Shown piece after piece: positions 7,999 to 24,402 of a DNA stretch of 24,927 bases. The stretch is from a virus. The stretch spans positions 1 through 24,927 of IMG/VR virus record IMGVR_UViG_3300010413_000156. The stretch is one strand, 5' to 3'. A model generated the notes under the pieces. It ran no database searches. It was not told where the DNA came from and worked only from the letters and a program-made list of their open reading frames with translations. The stretch's first letter is position 1. Each line of letters starts with the position of its first letter. A program made the translations under genes and the position numbers.

Positions 7999-8442
7999 TT
8001 ATACTTCGTACAAAGATTCTGGGTCTACTGCAAGGGTAGCTACAGTAGTGCTTATACCGCCTGTAGCAATAGCACCCACTCCCAGCTTGGTTACTTTGGC
8101 GGTGAAATTGAATACGTCGCCATTCGGCAGCGTAATTTCAAACGCATAGCTGTTATCGCTATCCCGTGCGGCCTGGAGAATCACCTGCCCTGCGTCTGCA
8201 AACACACGGCCAATAGTAAGGGACAAATCTGCAATGTCGTAAGTATCCTTCAGCTTCTGCGGATAACGACGCGACAGACCTTGGTGGGATACCATGTTGA
8301 ATGCTTTGGCGATTTCGCCTACGTCCACGACCTCTCCGACGCTTGTGAAAGTAAGTGCTCCGTATCCCGCGCCATCGTAGGTAGCAGGTAGGGAGGCGGA
8401 TACACCAATGGTTGTTCCAGAGTTGATTGCAACGTCAGTCAT
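7999..8442 (-). CDS. major tail tube protein
   Basis: 147 aa, immediately upstream of the tail assembly chaperones and downstream of the tail terminator. The sequence is beta-rich with the pattern ALTFTSVGEVVDVGEI near residue 30 and SYAFEITLPNGDVFNFTAKVTKL near 105, typical of short siphovirus tube subunits that stack as hexameric rings. The length is near the lower end for tube proteins and there is no added C-terminal Ig-like domain. The junction with the preceding gene leaves only four bases, so the two are probably co-translated. Confidence 0.85.
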   Translation of the reverse strand: MTDVAINSGTTIGVSASLPATYDGAGYGALTFTSVGEVVDVGEIAKAFNMVSHQGLSRRYPQKLKDTYDIADLSLTIGRVFADAGQVILQAARDSDNSYAFEITLPNGDVFNFTAKVTKLGVGAIATGGISTTVATLAVDPESLYEV

Positions 8443-15521: not shown

Positions 15522-15986
15522 TTAGTCGAAACTCACAGCATCTACGCCATTACCGCAGGAGCTATCAAACATACTAGCTATCTCCACCGCAGTCCTAGCA
15601 TCCTGTCCAAGGTATAGAGCAGCAATAGCACAACCTCTACCACTACCTTCTGCAAATATCTTTTCTTCGATTCGAATTGGAATCAGACCATTCTGGTACA
15701 GGAATATCCTGTGCGGCTGCCCTGCCTTATCGGCTTTTTCTATGAGTACGAAATCGACAGCTCTGGAACTTTCCAACTGTACACTAGGAAAATCTTCTTG
15801 CTTCCTACCGCAACGCACCCACTCGAACATCTGCAAAGCAACGACAGCTTCACCAGCAGCAGCGCACAACACTTGTTTGCCTTTTACTGTGTAGTGACGA
15901 ACTTTCGTCACAGTCACAATCCCTTCGCATCTACTCTGGCGTCTATCCGCAGCTAAACTCTTTCCATCCCAAGCAATAACAGTTAT
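15522..15986 (-). CDS. Ntn-hydrolase / proteasome beta (HslV)-like protein with apparent ATA start
   Basis: The conventional start (GTG at 15917) would cut off a clearly coding N-terminus. In the same frame, from 15986, the DNA reads ATA then TVIAWDGKSLAADRR, the start of phage Ntn-hydrolase-like proteins (usually Met-Thr-x-Ile-Ala-x-Asp-Gly). With Met removed, Thr1 would be the nucleophile, and Asp13 and Lys27 (VTKV) fit the proteasome Thr/Asp/Lys arrangement. The C-terminal GSGRGCAIAALYLGQDARTA, followed by Val-Glu-Ile-Ala, matches the conserved Gly-Ser-Gly helix region. The ATA overlaps the TerL stop as TAATA, where other junctions use TAATG. Length is 154 aa from ATA. It might be a maturation protease, but activity is unproven and the start needs experiment. 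Confidence 0.75.
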   Translation of the reverse strand: MTVIAWDGKSLAADRRQSRCEGIVTVTKVRHYTVKGKQVLCAAAGEAVVALQMFEWVRCGRKQEDFPSVQLESSRAVDFVLIEKADKAGQPHRIFLYQNGLIPIRIEEKIFAEGSGRGCAIAALYLGQDARTAVEIASMFDSSCGNGVDAVSFD

Positions 15987-17221
15987 TACATCGCACTCCC
16001 GATTCCAGTTATAAGTACAGGCTTTATGACGGGCATTTCCATAATAGTCAAATAGCCGAGCGCATCGTTGTGGTGATCGTGCCCTTGGGACTTATCCGGT
16101 TCCCCGTTCTTGTCGTAAGCCTGCTGTTCTAAACAGCTAGTAACGTTAGGCGCTAATGCCGTGTTTACGAATAGCCGTTGTTTGCTGAATGCTGTGTTGA
16201 CTGCAAGTATACGGTCCTTAACAAAAGGGTTCTTCTTATTCGCCTTAACACTAAACCCAGCCTGCCTCAACAAAGCCAAGTCTGTAGCACTAGCGTTAAC
16301 AGAGCGCCTACTGTCTCCACTAGCGTCCGGGTACATAGTAATACTATGCTGCGGATACTTTTCCTTAAGTACGTCTACTAAGCTAGGCGTGTCAAATACA
16401 TCTACTAACTCTCCAACAACATGAAACCCAGTATCCCGCTTAACGCATATGACACTAGACATATGTCCTACGTTAAAATCCTGTCCAATATAAAGCGGCT
16501 CTTTCTCTTCTATAGTTTCATAACTTCTGCAAACATCCCGGTCAAACGTGTTGTATACAGAACCCGACGTTAGGTTAACAAATTCTCCATTAAGGTAAGC
16601 AGCAATAAGCTGCTCCGGATACTGGTCCATGAGTGTAGGGATATAGTCCGCCTGCAAATTATGCGCATTACTATATGTACTCATCTGAACCAGCTTACTG
16701 TCTTTAAGGGGTTTCTGCTTGAACAACTGGTAAGTCGCCTTAAACCCCTCTGGCGTAGTAGTAATGTACAGTTGGTTCTTCTTTACCGTGCCGTACTTCA
16801 AGCGCATACGTGCGGACGCTTTACGAAATACTTCTAACGCTTTGTCTTTAGGCAGTATGTCAAATTCATCCAAAAATATATCTGCACACTCCCAACCAAC
16901 GATTTTAGATGGGTCCTCCATCGTGCGGCAGATTACTTTCCCTAGACCATACACGTAAATCGTATTCTCGCTCTTGTTTATAGCGTAGGGCCAACCAAGC
17001 TCCTCCAGCATTTCCTCTGCTTTAGGATAAAAGATGTCCCGCACTAGCGCGTATGTTGGAGCTAAGTATGCTTGGTGGAACCCTGGACGTTGTGCAAGAT
17101 TAGACAGAATGCGGATTAATGCCGCTTGTGTCTTCCCACTTCCGAACCCTGCTACCGCAGCGGTGTACTTAGCTTCGCTGTGGTAGAATTCGGACTGCGG
17201 TCCAGTAAGCTGTACTTTCAC
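15986..17221 (-). CDS. terL: terminase large subunit
   Basis: 411 aa. The ATPase half has Walker A GFGSGKT (residues 25-31), Walker B IFLDE (115-119) and coupling motif TTTPEG (154-159). The nuclease half has acidic residues in the expected places: QDFN (Asp248), YPDASGD (Asp299, Asp303) and HHNDALGY (Asp386). It translocates and cuts DNA at the portal. ATGA overlap with the upstream gene and near-overlap with the Ntn-like gene show tight coupling. Length and motifs are complete, with no sign of an intein or intron. Confidence 0.97.
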   Translation of the reverse strand: MKVQLTGPQSEFYHSEAKYTAAVAGFGSGKTQAALIRILSNLAQRPGFHQAYLAPTYALVRDIFYPKAEEMLEELGWPYAINKSENTIYVYGLGKVICRTMEDPSKIVGWECADIFLDEFDILPKDKALEVFRKASARMRLKYGTVKKNQLYITTTPEGFKATYQLFKQKPLKDSKLVQMSTYSNAHNLQADYIPTLMDQYPEQLIAAYLNGEFVNLTSGSVYNTFDRDVCRSYETIEEKEPLYIGQDFNVGHMSSVICVKRDTGFHVVGELVDVFDTPSLVDVLKEKYPQHSITMYPDASGDSRRSVNASATDLALLRQAGFSVKANKKNPFVKDRILAVNTAFSKQRLFVNTALAPNVTSCLEQQAYDKNGEPDKSQGHDHHNDALGYLTIMEMPVIKPVLITGIGSAM

Positions 17222-17646
17222 GGGTACGCATACCGAGCGTCTGCTAATACATTACGGTCCATGTAAGTAACCTCCAACACAGGCATACTATGTTCCATGT
17301 TCTCCCAGTCGTACAACTGCGCACCCGGTATACCCTCATTAGGGTCGTACACGTATAGCTGTCCGTCTTCGCTTTTGTGCATAACAATACGGTGCAGCGT
17401 ACCCAACGTGTGCAAACTAGGAACCGTTACTAGGTACGTGCCGTAGTAGGGGAACATACTGGGAGCGTCGTGCGGAAGGGAGCGCGGAAACACCTTGCTT
17501 TCTACAAGCAGCATAGTTTCTACGTCCGGGCCAAGCGGGACATCCCCGACGCGCTCTACATACTCCATAACGGGTACGCCTGTTACCATGGACACACAGG
17601 CGTGGACACAGGTGTTGCGTGTTGGTTGTGTGACGTGCTGGATCAT
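17218..17646 (-). CDS. C39-like papain-fold cysteine peptidase-like protein
   Basis: 142 aa from the ATG at 17646; a GTG one codon upstream has better Shine-Dalgarno spacing and is possible. The N-terminus has QPTRNTCVHACVSMVTG, with Gln7 and Cys13 placed like the oxyanion-hole Gln and nucleophile of C39-like peptidases. Further on, GTLHRIVMH (His85) and YVYDPNEG (Asp101) supply the His and Asp. The domain is complete but has no export or ABC module, unlike bacteriocin transporters. It sits immediately before TerL. Possible roles are processing of a phage or host protein, or a non-catalytic structural function. The substrate is unknown. Confidence 0.75.
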   Translation of the reverse strand: MIQHVTQPTRNTCVHACVSMVTGVPVMEYVERVGDVPLGPDVETMLLVESKVFPRSLPHDAPSMFPYYGTYLVTVPSLHTLGTLHRIVMHKSEDGQLYVYDPNEGIPGAQLYDWENMEHSMPVLEVTYMDRNVLADARYAYP

Positions 17647-17846
17647 CACACTGTACTCCTATCTAGTGCATTGCGTACTTCCTTACGTGCAAGGATTACT
17701 CCACCCGCGACACGGCGACGGAATTCGGGAACGCTCTCGTCGCCTTGTCTACGTATCCTTGCAGTAGTTATCTTCGTACTCTTCCCTTTCGTTCCTACGA
17801 TAGAGAAGTTTACAATATCTGGAGTCTGTACCATACGTAGAATCAT
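17646..17846 (-). CDS. small basic protein, unknown
   Basis: 66 aa. I chose the ATG at 17846 because GGGAGG lies 5 bases upstream and the ATG overlaps the previous stop as ATGA. A longer frame to 17873 would start inside the previous gene. The protein is basic (TKGKSTKITTARIRRQ, EFRRRVAGGVILARKEVR) with no transmembrane segment. It might bind nucleic acid given its charge and its place in the packaging block, but there is no recognised motif. Confidence 0.65.
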   Translation of the reverse strand: MILRMVQTPDIVNFSIVGTKGKSTKITTARIRRQGDESVPEFRRRVAGGVILARKEVRNALDRSTV

Positions 17847-19355: not shown

Positions 19356-19384
19356 GGTATAAACCGCTGCAATAACCGTGTCAT
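19356..19384 (-). promoter_or_regulatory. possible promoter of the late block, overlapping a repeat
   Basis: Minus strand: ATGACA (19384-19379), 17-base spacer, TATACC (19361-19356). The -35 box lies mainly inside repeat copy 1 (19372-19383), so a protein binding the repeat would block or contact RNA polymerase. The boxes are imperfect, so this is tentative. Confidence 0.35.
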
Positions 19385-19592
19385 TATTTTGACACAGTTT
19401 TTGACACGGTTATGGCCGCCGCCGTTGCTGGGTTTTTAGTAAAAATAAGGTAGTAAAAATAATAAAAATATAATTATAAATACTATATATAAGGCCCATG
19501 ACACGATTATTCTGACACACTTAATGCTCCAGCCGCCACTGTTATGCGGTTATAACCGTGTCAATAATAGATAACTGTGTTGACACAGTTAT
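19372..19592. repeat. eight 12-bp repeats around an AT-rich core: candidate origin or operator
   Basis: Consensus TGACACRGTTAT. Copies (some with one or a few mismatches): 19372-19383 (reverse), 19390-19401, 19402-19413, 19499-19510, 19513-19524, 19552-19563 (reverse), 19571-19582 (reverse) and 19581-19592. The first and third form a perfect 12-bp inverted repeat. The last two form a palindrome with 10-bp arms and a 2-bp centre (19571-19592). Between the two clusters, about 19436-19495 is almost purely A+T. Repeats flanking an AT-rich core resemble a phage replication origin with iterons, but a repressor operator or terminase site is also possible. This accounts for most of the 349-bp gene-free gap. 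Confidence 0.75.
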
Positions 19593-19641: not shown

Positions 19642-19947
19642 TTAGCGGGGTAGTGGGGACTGTTTGGGTATGCTTATCACCTGTGCAAAGATCTTACATT
19701 CCTTTATGAGACGCGGAGGTATTGTGTAGTTGATGTATTTGCGATAACCGCCGTGTGCGATGGTAGACACTACTCTAATTATGTCTATTACAGCGTTCCT
19801 TTTTATCTCGTATACGTGCTCCTTGTACACGAAATACATCAGGTAGTTGTCTGTATACACGTATACATTTTCCATCTCACACACATCCATACAAACGTCT
19901 GTACCTTTGTGTGCTATTTGTTGCTTAGTGTTAACTGTCCAAACCAT
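19642..19947 (-). CDS. tag-array protein A: N-terminal M-V-W-T-V-N-T-K-Q tag plus A-F family domain
   Basis: 101 aa, last gene of the array. It opens with MVWTVNTKQ, a copy of the tag shared by nine consecutive genes. After a linker comes the beta-rich family core ENVYVYTDNYLMYFVYKEHV followed by Tyr-Glu-Ile, then a basic C-terminal part (YRKYINYTIPPRLIKECKIF). The stop of gene B is one base before this ATG (TAAT-ATG), with GGGAA upstream. It has no membrane segment or catalytic motif I can recognise. The function is unknown. Paralogy with B-F is seen directly. Confidence 0.85.
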   Translation of the reverse strand: MVWTVNTKQQIAHKGTDVCMDVCEMENVYVYTDNYLMYFVYKEHVYEIKRNAVIDIIRVVSTIAHGGYRKYINYTIPPRLIKECKIFAQVISIPKQSPLPR

Positions 19948-19948
19948 A

Positions 19949-20233
19949 TTAAAATTCCCGTCTGTAGGTAGCTACATGCTGCAACTTACTTAAGTCTCTT
20001 GGCACGGAAGTCTTTGTATAACAGTGCTTTCCGTCTAGGATTTCATTTGCGATATATTCCCTCTGTCCGTTATCCATAGAATCTTCCTTATAGAACAAAT
20101 ACTGAACTCCATCCTTCACATATACAACCGTATCCTCTCCAATATAAACATCTACCCTACTCCTGACGCTTTCGGCAGGAACACTTACGGTAGGACATTC
20201 ACTACTTTGTTTATTCTGTACAGTCCAAGGCAT
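19949..20233 (-). CDS. tag-array protein B: M-P-W-T-V-Q-N-K-Q tag plus A-F family domain
   Basis: 94 aa. The frame is open to 20254, but the ATG at 20233 is chosen because it begins the shared tag (MPWTVQNKQ) and follows a GGGAAT ribosome-binding site. The linker is Ser/Pro/Val-rich. The core SRVDVYIGEDTVVYVKDGVQ, then Tyr-Leu-Phe-Tyr-Lys-Glu, aligns with A and C-F. The C-terminal half (GQREYIANEILDG) is helical and ends with RREF. Function unknown. The gap to gene C is 10 bases. Confidence 0.85.
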   Translation of the reverse strand: MPWTVQNKQSSECPTVSVPAESVRSRVDVYIGEDTVVYVKDGVQYLFYKEDSMDNGQREYIANEILDGKHCYTKTSVPRDLSKLQHVATYRREF

Positions 20234-20243
20234 AGTATATTCC

Positions 20244-20525
20244 CTAATAGTCAACAGTTACATCTATTACAGTCACAAACTGCATACCCGGCGTGCGTTC
20301 AAATTCCATACTTGCGTATTCTTTTGAATACAGGACAACCTGCTCAGCAAAGTAAAGCAGCTCTCCGCGGTCTGTAAGATCTACACGTGAAAACGGGAGG
20401 CAGACACCACGGTATACGAAATAGCAGACATCACCTTCCCTATATACACCAACCTCTTCCGTGCGCACACAAGCAGGCACAGGAGTAACAACATCTACAC
20501 GTTTATTGCTAACAACCCAAACCAT
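20244..20525 (-). CDS. tag-array protein C: M-V-W-V-V-S-N-K-R tag plus A-F family domain
   Basis: 93 aa from the ATG at 20525, which follows AAGGAG at ideal spacing. The frame runs open much farther upstream, but that part lies inside gene D. The tag is followed by a Val/Pro-rich linker and the core EEVGVYREGDVCYFVYRGVC, then Leu-Pro-Phe-Ser. A helix (ELLYFAEQVVLYSKEYA) follows, and a beta-like tail (QFVTVIDVTVDY). The general plan matches B, suggesting duplication and divergence. No known function. Confidence 0.85.
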   Translation of the reverse strand: MVWVVSNKRVDVVTPVPACVRTEEVGVYREGDVCYFVYRGVCLPFSRVDLTDRGELLYFAEQVVLYSKEYASMEFERTPGMQFVTVIDVTVDY

Positions 20526-20529
20526 AGTA

Positions 20530-20850
20530 TTACTCCTTAGGGAACCTGTACGTGTGTATGAGCTCCATGCCGCCAACACGGTCAGGGTCTGTTGAATATA
20601 GCTCATCGTCAGCTGCTCGCCTAGCAGCCCTAAGGAACCATTTTGGGTGCGTACCTGGAGTACGTCCACTACGAGAGAACCCGTAAGCCTTGCTATTACA
20701 CAGAAACACTATATACCTTTTGTTTTGGTAAACATGTACAATGTCGCACTCAGCATCTGTAGGCAGTGTATTATCCAGTACAGTACCTAGTTGACTTATG
20801 GAGTCTACAACTACCTCTTCCACAGCTTTAGTTATAACAACCCATACCAT
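20530..20850 (-). CDS. tag-array protein D: M-V-W-V-V-I-T-K-A tag plus A-F family domain
   Basis: 106 aa. The tag is the most eroded among A-F at its end (TKA instead of NKQ). After a longer acidic linker the core CDIVHVYQNKRYIVFLCNSK, then Ala-Tyr-Gly-Phe-Ser, aligns with the family. The C-terminal part is different from the other members: Arg-rich and helical (PKWFLRAARRAADDELY). The start follows AAAGGAA and is one base after the stop of E. Function unknown. Confidence 0.82.
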   Translation of the reverse strand: MVWVVITKAVEEVVVDSISQLGTVLDNTLPTDAECDIVHVYQNKRYIVFLCNSKAYGFSRSGRTPGTHPKWFLRAARRAADDELYSTDPDRVGGMELIHTYRFPKE

Positions 20851-20851
20851 A

Positions 20852-21217
20852 CTAGTGTTCCTTTTGTAGCAAGCTTGTATGTAACTCTTGTAATTCCAAA
20901 ATAGTCTGTTCTAACAATTCGGAATTAAACCAATGTACTTTCTTCTCATACTCGTCTAAACAAGGGACATCGTTCCAGGCAGAAAGCCTATGTGCAGCAG
21001 TTTTAGCAGCAATACGTCGCTCTGCCTGAATATTATTTTGCCGGATAAGCGTATCTGTAGGAAAACGTACACAGTAGGAGCCACACTTAAACCACGTATA
21101 AGGGGACCCTTCCTTGAAGTAAACATCCACCCTAATAAGGTCCTCTCCAATATCTACCTCGCAAGCAGTATTCTGTACAACTTGCGCGTGTTGTTTATTA
21201 CGTACTATCCAACCCAT
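20852..21217 (-). CDS. tag-array protein E: M-G-W-I-V-R-N-K-Q tag plus A-F family domain
   Basis: 121 aa, the longest member. The tag is exact (MGWIVRNKQ). The core is IRVDVYFKEGSPYTWFKCGS, then Tyr-Cys-Val-Arg-Phe. A long helical C-terminal extension follows (IQAERRIAAKTAAHRLSAW and LEQTILELQELHTSLLQKE), which could form a coiled coil and so oligomerise. The start overlaps gene F by 13 bases, so the two are translationally coupled. Unknown function. Confidence 0.85.
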   Translation of the reverse strand: MGWIVRNKQHAQVVQNTACEVDIGEDLIRVDVYFKEGSPYTWFKCGSYCVRFPTDTLIRQNNIQAERRIAAKTAAHRLSAWNDVPCLDEYEKKVHWFNSELLEQTILELQELHTSLLQKEH

Positions 21218-21495
21218 TTGTATTCTCCGTCATATAAGTAACTACGGCCAGTGAAACGAAGTTCTTCCTTTTCTGGGCACGGCAAGTAGGAATTAGTGTC
21301 CTGTATGAGATTGTGTGCGTAGTGTTCCTCTTTTTCTTCGCTACAAAAACCAAACGAATAAAACTTACCTTCGTATTTCAAATACTTGAGGTAACTGCCG
21401 TAGTCCATATACACATGCACCGTATGCACAGCACAGGGTTGCTCCTTCTGTGTAGCACAGGCACGTTCTTGCTTAGCCACTACTTTCCATCCCAT
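21205..21495 (-). CDS. tag-array protein F: M-G-W-K-V-V-A-K-Q tag plus A-F family domain
   Basis: 96 aa. The tag MGWKVVAKQ is followed by a Cys/Gln-rich linker and the family core HTVHVYMDYGSYLKYLKYEG, then Lys-Phe-Tyr-Ser-Phe-Gly-Phe. It ends in a short helical and beta region with several Glu, Cys and Tyr residues. The start lies within the 3' end of gene G (16-base overlap), after GGAG. This is the first A-F-type gene in transcription order. Unknown function. Confidence 0.85.
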   Translation of the reverse strand: MGWKVVAKQERACATQKEQPCAVHTVHVYMDYGSYLKYLKYEGKFYSFGFCSEEKEEHYAHNLIQDTNSYLPCPEKEELRFTGRSYLYDGEYKWVG

Positions 21496-21815
21496 ACAAC
21501 ATCTCCATTAGGCCCACGAAAGTTACCGCTTTTCGGCATGTATGCAAGCACATAACCAGATACCTTTATATTGTCCTTAGACTTAACACGCCTATACCAG
21601 TCTGCGCAAACAGGGAGACGTTTACTGACGAGCTCCTGCCTCCAATGTGCGTTGTCCACACGTGCAACAATGTTACGCTTGCGGCTCACAACGGCATATC
21701 CGCGCCTAGCAAGGAACTCGGCCTCCTGTTTAGGATCGCTAAACGTGACACCGAACTTTTCAGCCACAGCAGGACTACACTTTTTCATACCCGCATTAAC
21801 AACAATCCAAGCCAT
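21480..21815 (-). CDS. tag-array protein G: M-A-W-I-V-V-N-A-G tag on an unrelated body
   Basis: 111 aa from the ATG at 21815, which overlaps the stop of gene H (TAATG). The frame upstream to 21953 lies inside H. The start MAWIVVN keeps the first half of the tag. Then the body is unlike A-F: PAVAEKFGVTFSDPKQEAEF, LARRGYAVVSRKRNIVARVD, WRQELVSKRLPVCADWYRRV and SGYVLAYMPKSG. It is basic and mixed alpha/beta. I do not recognise the domain. Its place inside the array and its shared N-terminus argue that it belongs to the same system. Confidence 0.8.
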   Translation of the reverse strand: MAWIVVNAGMKKCSPAVAEKFGVTFSDPKQEAEFLARRGYAVVSRKRNIVARVDNAHWRQELVSKRLPVCADWYRRVKSKDNIKVSGYVLAYMPKSGNFRGPNGDVVWDGK

Positions 21816-22066
21816 TAGTCTACGACCTCGAACAGTTGAGACGGGTACATAAAATTCGTTCCTAGTAACCGGATACATACACCTTCTCGGAGAACAGTGA
21901 CAGACTTGACAGTATAATAGTGCCCGACGGTAAGACCTTCTTTCTTTGTCCATTGGTTGTGCTTAAGCAACTCAACAGTAGACCCGATGCGTAGACTGTT
22001 ATCTTCTGCGCTCGTTGTTTCTGGTACAGCAGTACACACAGTCTGTTTATTTGTTACAATCCACAT
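21815..22066 (-). CDS. tag-array protein H: M-W-I-V-T-N-K-Q tag on an SH3-like domain
   Basis: 83 aa. MWIVTNKQ is the tag with one residue fewer after Met. The linker is Thr/Ser-rich. From about residue 25 the sequence (LRIGSTVELLKHNQWTKKEG, LTVGHYYTVKSVTVLREGVC, FMYPSQLFEVV) has the strand and Gly pattern of small SH3/KOW-like phage proteins, in which a Leu-Thr-x-Gly-x-x-Tyr-x-Val segment is typical. The start follows the stop of gene I by one base. Body function unknown. Confidence 0.82.
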   Translation of the reverse strand: MWIVTNKQTVCTAVPETTSAEDNSLRIGSTVELLKHNQWTKKEGLTVGHYYTVKSVTVLREGVCIRLLGTNFMYPSQLFEVVD

Positions 22067-22067
22067 A

Positions 22068-22337
22068 TCACAACCATCCAAGTCTAAGGCACTGCAAGTT
22101 CGTAAGTTGCGCGGTATAATTCATAAAATCGTCCCACTGCTCATTACAGTGGAATACAACAAACACAGCGTTATGAACACCCGGGATCTCTACACGCTTC
22201 ACCCTTCCGTGAGAAGGTTTCCCACCGAAGTCAAGTGGATAAACAAACGTCACACGGTCTCCAACAGCTAAGTCCTCAACACGTAAAGCGCCATCGGGCG
22301 ATGTGCTAGATTGTGCCTTGTTTTGTACCACCCGCAT
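22068..22337 (-). CDS. tag-array protein I: M-R-V-V-Q-N-K tag on a conserved SH3-like phage domain
   Basis: 89 aa, first gene of the array, ATG at 22337 after AAGAGG. The opening MRVVQNKAQ aligns with gene H (MWIVTNKQ) but lacks Trp. The body (LAVGDRVTFVYPLDFGGKPS, HGRVKRVE, VFVVFHCNEQWDDFMNYTAQ, LRLGW) resembles a widespread phage family with a Gly-Asp-x-Val opening, Phe-Val-x-Phe/Tyr-x-Cys, and Tyr-Thr near the end. Members I recall usually start near the Val-Gly-Asp, so the tag looks like an added extension. Function of the family is unknown. Confidence 0.8.
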   Translation of the reverse strand: MRVVQNKAQSSTSPDGALRVEDLAVGDRVTFVYPLDFGGKPSHGRVKRVEIPGVHNAVFVVFHCNEQWDDFMNYTAQLTNLQCLRLGWL

Positions 22338-23963: not shown

Positions 23964-24293
23964 TCACTTCCCTCCTAATAGCTCCTGCGCCATGTCAATC
24001 AACTCGCCCAGTGTAGGATTATTGTTATACGTCATCTCTGCTCCGCTACTCATTGTAGTGCGCTTTGAGGTGACGAGTTCCAAGAATGAGTGGAGGCGTT
24101 TGTTTTCTTCGTTTGCGGCGCGGGTGTTCCATTGACTTGTTGCAGAGCCAATGTCTCCGGTAAGCATATGGCAACCACATTTTGTGCAGAAAATATCTCC
24201 CCAATTTTGAAGGTCTCTATTATCCTTCGCTTTTCCGCCGCAAAACGGACAAGGCAGCAACTCTTCCTGTGTAATATCTTGTTGGTCAGTCAT
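23964..24293 (-). CDS. Lar-like restriction alleviation family protein
   Basis: 109 aa from the ATG at 24293 (GGAG 7 bases upstream; a longer frame to 24371 overlaps another ORF). ELLPCPFCGGKA, then FCTKCGCHM, then SQWNTRA form the Lar signature: a CPFCGG zinc knuckle, a second Cys-x2-Cys and a Trp-Asn-x-Arg-Ala closing. Named for the Rac prophage Lar protein, which relieves type I restriction. Many phage homologues are untested. The C-terminal 40 residues (LHSFLELVTSKRT and LIDMAQELLGG) are additional. Confidence 0.85.
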   Translation of the reverse strand: MTDQQDITQEELLPCPFCGGKAKDNRDLQNWGDIFCTKCGCHMLTGDIGSATSQWNTRAANEENKRLHSFLELVTSKRTTMSSGAEMTYNNNPTLGELIDMAQELLGGK

Positions 24294-24402
24294 TGGTGTT
24301 CTCCACGTTAGGTACAAATCCAATTTTCTTAAGCTCTTCCCAACTCCCAGCCTCAAAACCGGGTTTGGCAATCGGCTCCAACGCGTGGCTGTTCGTATGC
24401 AG
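24286..24402 (-). CDS. 38-aa ORF with CTG start, or extension of the upstream gene by UGA readthrough
   Basis: An AGGAGG lies four bases before a CTG at 24402 that opens a frame of 38 residues, LHTNSHALEPIAKPGFEAGS then WEELKKIGFVPN and a short end. It overlaps the start of the Lar-like gene. There is no ATG, GTG or well-placed TTG. The frame is the same as that of the 51-aa gene upstream, and no stop occurs between that gene's TGA (followed by C, a leaky context) and this ORF. Either a non-standard start or readthrough could express it. It may also be a decayed gene. Confidence 0.4.
   Translation of the reverse strand: MHTNSHALEPIAKPGFEAGSWEELKKIGFVPNVENTND

Follow-up and report, generated by a model that had tools for sequence, protein, structure and literature searches.

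Nine adjacent small genes of a bacterial virus begin with variants of one short peptide, M-x-W-x-V-x-N-K-Q, which is conserved at the protein level and heads bodies of several unrelated kinds. The genes, termed g1 to g9, occupy positions 22337 down to 19642 on the minus strand of IMG/VR virus record IMGVR_UViG_3300010413_000156. The whole record, 24,927 bases in length, was analyzed and is called the window; it is incomplete, with the remaining genome lying outside it. We propose that the shared peptide, hereafter the tag, probably serves as a modular N-terminal peptide for docking or targeting, carried on a flexible tether and fused to a set of accessory proteins.

Nine packed genes share an N-terminal peptide

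The contig comes from an uncultured bacterial virus, a Guernseyvirinae-like siphophage, and its terminase is ∼49% identical to those of Guernseyvirinae siphophages such as K1H. Head and tail genes form the left part of the window and small genes the right part, and all genes considered here are on the minus strand. An earlier reading of the DNA, made from the letters alone (the sequence-only reading), had described nine tandem open reading frames (ORFs) with N-termini of the tag type, and all nine are present. Each is preceded by a plausible ribosome-binding site (RBS), and neighboring genes overlap by up to 16 bases or lie up to 10 bases apart. Further tagged genes may lie beyond the ends of the contig. 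The array comprises the following genes, with protein lengths in amino acids (aa) and, where noted, the supporting evidence in brackets.

g1, 22068–22337, minus strand: 89 aa starting MRVVQNKAQ; tag MRVVQNKA (22314–22337), linker, small SH3-like domain of a phage family (ORF, RBS, tagless homologues, model)
g2, 21815–22066, minus strand: 83 aa; tag MWIVTNKQ (22043–22066), linker, body without known relatives
g3, 21480–21815, minus strand: 111 aa; tag MAWIVVNAG (21789–21815), linker, phrog_8098-type domain (profile match, homologues)
g4, 21205–21495, minus strand: 96 aa; tag MGWKVVAKQ (21469–21495), linker, g4–g9 type domain (body similarity)
g5, 20852–21217, minus strand: 121 aa; tag MGWIVRNKQ (21191–21217), linker, g4–g9 type domain (body similarity)
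g6, 20530–20850, minus strand: 106 aa; tag MVWVVITKA (20824–20850), long linker, probable g4–g9 type domain (weak body similarity)
g7, 20244–20525, minus strand: 93 aa; tag MVWVVSNKR (20499–20525), linker, g4–g9 type domain (body similarity)
g8, 19949–20233, minus strand: 94 aa; tag MPWTVQNKQ (20207–20233), disordered linker, beta-beta-beta-alpha-beta domain (model, structural match)
g9, 19642–19947, minus strand: 101 aa; tag MVWTVNTKQ (19921–19947), linker, g4–g9 type domain (body similarity)

The similarity among these N-termini is more than chance. Column agreement summed over tag positions 2–9 is 44, compared with a mean of 17.4 across 5,000 shuffles, the highest of which reached 25. A reference-free search for shared N-termini (127 sequences, 4,953 candidate starts) returned eight of the nine array genes, with g1 below threshold, and the sole other cluster it produced is the known DUF7211 motif. 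Even though orthologous arrays were not found elsewhere (see below), chance is excluded, since nine separate genes contribute the signal.

Conservation resides in the peptide. Among 104 pairs of tag positions that carry the same residue, 49 share a codon, whereas 42 would be expected from codon usage (P 0.10–0.12), such that no base conservation beyond what the peptide requires is detected. At a P of about 0.11, this count agrees with the sequence-only reading, which had noted that the codons vary and that conservation seems to lie in the peptide and not in the DNA. Setting aside the trivial overlap of adjoining fragments, DNA matches among the nine genes extend over 10–17 bases, and upstream identity is confined to the RBS. 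Synonymous sites thus approach saturation, whereas W, V, N and K are kept, which argues for selection on the peptide, or for repeated convergence on it.

The tag is predicted to precede a flexible linker in a common register

In the AlphaFold model of g8, residues 1–24 have low confidence and strands begin at residue 25, and in that of g1 residues ∼1–19 have low confidence ahead of a domain scoring above 90. Tag and linker are therefore predicted to be disordered in front of the folded domain in both proteins. Most linkers hold a Cys together with small polar residues (VPAC in g7, TAC in g5, QPC in g4), possibly constituting a second weak motif.

The second residue of the proteins hints at a fixed register. 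The seven longer tags, which have one extra residue before W, all carry V, P, G or A at position 2, whereas g1 and g2, in which the core is shifted by one residue, carry R or W. Met aminopeptidase normally removes the initiator Met before V, P, G or A. The Met would thus be lost from g3–g9 and retained on g1 and g2, which would place the mature core in the same register in all nine proteins. The probability of such a split arising by chance, estimated from the second residues of other genes, is ∼6e-4 for a pattern that was noticed after the fact.

The bodies behind the tag belong to different families

With the tag cut off, the bodies were compared with one another and their similarity expressed as z scores. 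Those of g4, g5, g7, g8 and g9 are detectable paralogues: g5 resembles g8 (z 5.7), g7 resembles g8 (z 7.0) and g9 (z 3.5), g4 resembles g9 (z 4.4), and g9 resembles g4, g7 and g8 (z 3.2–4.4). The body of g6, weakly similar to other array bodies (best z 1.7), is a probable paralogue only. Linkers and bodies alike have diverged almost beyond recognition.

Foldseek pairs the g8 model with a protein of Alteromonas phage ZP6 that is 81 residues long (probability 1.00, E 0.006). The ZP6 protein, whose gene was picked by length and sequence and not via its UniProt accession, is also similar in sequence (z 5.1 to g8, 3.8 to g4 and 2.4 to g6), begins at the domain and lacks the tag. A weaker structural match in Salmonella phage 7-11 was set aside, as the tagged array is not there. 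Comparison of the g8 and g1 models with the PDB using Foldseek gave no convincing match, and an IMG/VR search with g8 alone found no relatives.

The bodies of g1 and g3 belong to other families. That of g1 is 40% identical to gene 144 of Maribacter phage Colly_1. Relatives of it occur at 19 IMG/VR loci, and the majority of those read begin no more than ∼10 residues from the domain, compared with ∼19 in g1. Residues 32–98 of g3 match phrog_8098 (E 5e-5), with homologues in Escherichia phage ST20 and Vibrio phage 264E42.1, both of which lack the first ∼25 residues of g3, and with relatives in IMG/VR as well. For the g2 body, an IMG/VR search with g2 alone returned no relative. A tblastn search with the nine joined proteins against phages yielded body matches for g1 and g3 only, and tblastn with six of the nine against plasmids yielded none. 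The tag was seen in none of the body relatives read. The Colly_1, ST20, 264E42.1 and ZP6 proteins also have no linker like those of the array, and they start close to or directly with the domain.

Homology along the full length of all members, as expected of a single paralogous family formed by tandem duplication, is not observed. Plain gene-family ancestry of the array was rejected, given the separate families of g1 and g3, and at least three and probably four kinds of body (the g4–g9 domain, g1, g2 and g3) stand under the one tag.

A docking peptide could recruit different domains to one partner

In the arrangement we propose, each gene would specify a free N-terminal peptide, a disordered tether of ∼10–30 residues and a small folded domain. 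The mature core of the peptide, one small or hydrophobic residue followed by W-x-V-x-N-K-Q, would bring the nine accessory proteins, different as they are, to a single shared partner, either a host machine or a phage structure, and every recruited domain would perform its own job there. The alternating hydrophobic residues and the N-K-Q that follows suggest a beta-strand that might join a sheet of the partner. Docking itself, the single partner and the mode of strand addition are the parts of this scheme that we infer. A common targeting or docking signal predicts what was seen, namely a conserved peptide on unrelated bodies whose relatives elsewhere lack it. The sequence-only reading had suggested such a signal, by analogy with the capsid-targeting sequences of T4 internal proteins; the general idea fits these observations, whereas a leader of the T4 type is not matched in sequence. 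The destination could be a machine inside the infected cell, a view we hold tentatively, and the capsid or its scaffold is a more doubtful candidate.

Several points weigh against the docking proposal. Strand addition is a guess from the residue pattern. Two of the tags are degraded, with g1 carrying R in place of W and g3 carrying VVNAG in place of VxNKQ. Recurrence of the tag in orthologous arrays had been set beforehand as a database check, and no such array was found in IMG/VR, GTDB genomes, INPHARED phages or PLSDB plasmids, in searches that may omit records very near the window. Conservation of the tag can consequently be judged only among nine copies on one contig.

The searches for the array took several forms. 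A strict tag pattern gave 32 matches in IMG/VR, near the estimated chance number; these were out of frame, internal, very short or of the DUF7211 type, and no tandem array of this kind was among them. Patterns requiring two tags gave no match in IMG/VR and two in GTDB genomes, both attributable to chance. A profile built from the six g4–g9 proteins was too little conserved for searching. The nearest terminase relatives, on two contigs with 61% and 59% identity (L003 and L004), have no such array at the corresponding place. A further IMG/VR contig of 6,026 bases (L002) encodes a terminase 100% identical to that of the window and, judging from its length, stops before the array. Literature searches on shared N-terminal tags in small phage genes or on the DUF7211 motif yielded a single useful precedent, that of T4.

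Comparison with the T4 internal proteins

Each of T4 Ip1–3 inhibits its own GmrSD restriction enzyme, and the only homology among them is an N-terminal leader responsible for packaging (PMC12373910; PMC3012670). In T4-like phages, injected proteins with non-homologous bodies could be recognized through the leader, and they proved to inhibit distinct restriction enzymes (PMC12373910). The array resembles IpI, IpII and IpIII in that a short conserved N-terminal peptide is present on several small, otherwise non-homologous accessory proteins, and in that neighboring genes of an accessory region are involved (ipII and ipIII in T4). However, the T4 leader is of the MKTYQEF type, and the tag scores a mean of −3.8 against T4 leaders, compared with −3.5 for background. 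The leaders of ipII and ipIII are moreover nearly identical in DNA, whereas synonymous positions in the array are near random, and T4 has three genes in two loci whereas here nine are adjacent. The tag thus resembles the T4 sorting tag in organization but, by sequence, falls outside its family.

One version of the docking reading is that the tag is a packaging signal that binds the scaffold, portal or MuF protein, such that the nine proteins would enter the procapsid and pass into the cell along with the DNA, where they might, for instance, block host defenses. The similar organization of T4 Ip1–3 favors this version, as do a Lar-like restriction-alleviation gene in the same accessory-gene region and a separately encoded scaffolding protein. 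The MuF protein partially matches a maturation-protease family, with the match limited to its MuF part, and an HslV-like protein is encoded beside the portal gene. We keep packaging as the leading sub-case of docking and not as a conclusion, and consider it rather unlikely, because the T4 leader sequence is unmatched, a canonical prohead protease was not seen among the head genes scanned in this incomplete record, and seven of the nine proteins are neutral to acidic.

Explanations other than docking

The shared start might instead be a relic, left by rounds of duplication in which domains were replaced behind one and the same gene start, with a tag that has no present function. This view gains from the paralogy of five or six of the nine genes and from a consensus that reaches into the RBS. 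Nevertheless, a functionless remnant should lose residues as well as codons, and here W, V, N and K persist while synonymous positions are near random and bodies and linkers have diverged nearly to the point of unrecognizability. We therefore regard a relic as improbable.

It is less probable still that the tag sets protein level and not location, either by tuning early elongation as a nascent peptide or by marking the proteins at their N-termini for degradation by a host protease such as ClpXP. The position of the tag at the extreme N-terminus, in a predicted fixed register after Met removal, would suit this role. ClpX N-terminal recognition motifs are known; the tag does not seem to fit them, and it is absent from the other genes of this region. 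A shared destination is also more natural than one half-life for nine unrelated bodies.

The least probable alternative is that the conserved element is a nucleic acid, such as a translational operator (for example, a RegA-like repressor site) or another RNA or DNA signal, since its location at start codons and the DNA consensus that can be drawn (ATGGTTTGGATTGTAnnnAATAAACAA) are countered by third codon positions no more alike than codon usage predicts, upstream identity only at the RBS and the lack of any Rfam match.

Relation to the DUF7211 motif

The other cluster from the shared-N-terminus search offers a second comparison for the proposed docking peptide. DUF7211 (PF23847) is a peptide of ∼20 residues, EHHGVKGMKWGVR, common to neighboring phage proteins of many families (>10 PHROGs), and its core MxWGVRN resembles M-x-W-x-V-x-N. 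Unlike the array tag, which begins at the initiator Met, this peptide is internal, lies behind an acidic stretch and needs EHxGxKG in front. The DUF7211 Pfam model matched none of the nine array proteins at E up to 1, whereas control proteins from two contigs, L087 and L100, did match. On those contigs (L087, 1439–4400; L100, 437–3980), adjacent phage proteins of different families share the peptide, and the >10 PHROG families that match around it have no recorded function.

Other features of the window

Just downstream of the array, the intergenic region 19374–19590 contains seven copies of AACYGTGTCA (at most one mismatch, both orientations) around an AT-rich segment at 19437–19494; the cluster looks like a set of operator or iteron sites. 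The Lar-like restriction-alleviation protein mentioned above is encoded at 23964–24371, among the small genes on the upstream side of the array. The small protein encoded at 15522–15917, in the interval from the terminase gene to the portal gene, matches the HslV peptidase family (phrog_1040); it starts with MT and possibly has an N-terminal catalytic Thr. A small phrog_4049 protein, of a family with no recorded function, is encoded at 17218–17649 and has a similar counterpart at 8425–8856 of L004; by eye, it looks like a C39-type cysteine peptidase.

Implications

Short tags shared by unrelated proteins are rare in phages. The array could plausibly, though short of probably, represent an undescribed phage sorting code, in which the N-terminal peptide, W-x-V-x-N-K-Q in the mature protein, recruits at least nine interchangeable accessory proteins of at least three or four families to a single partner in a small siphophage and is propagated by fusion to new domains. 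No reference is needed to search for N-termini shared by adjacent genes, and such searches could reveal other labels of this kind. If the tag works in the manner of T4, nine uncharacterized proteins of a small siphophage would belong to one functional set, and the tag would provide a handle on their common partner.

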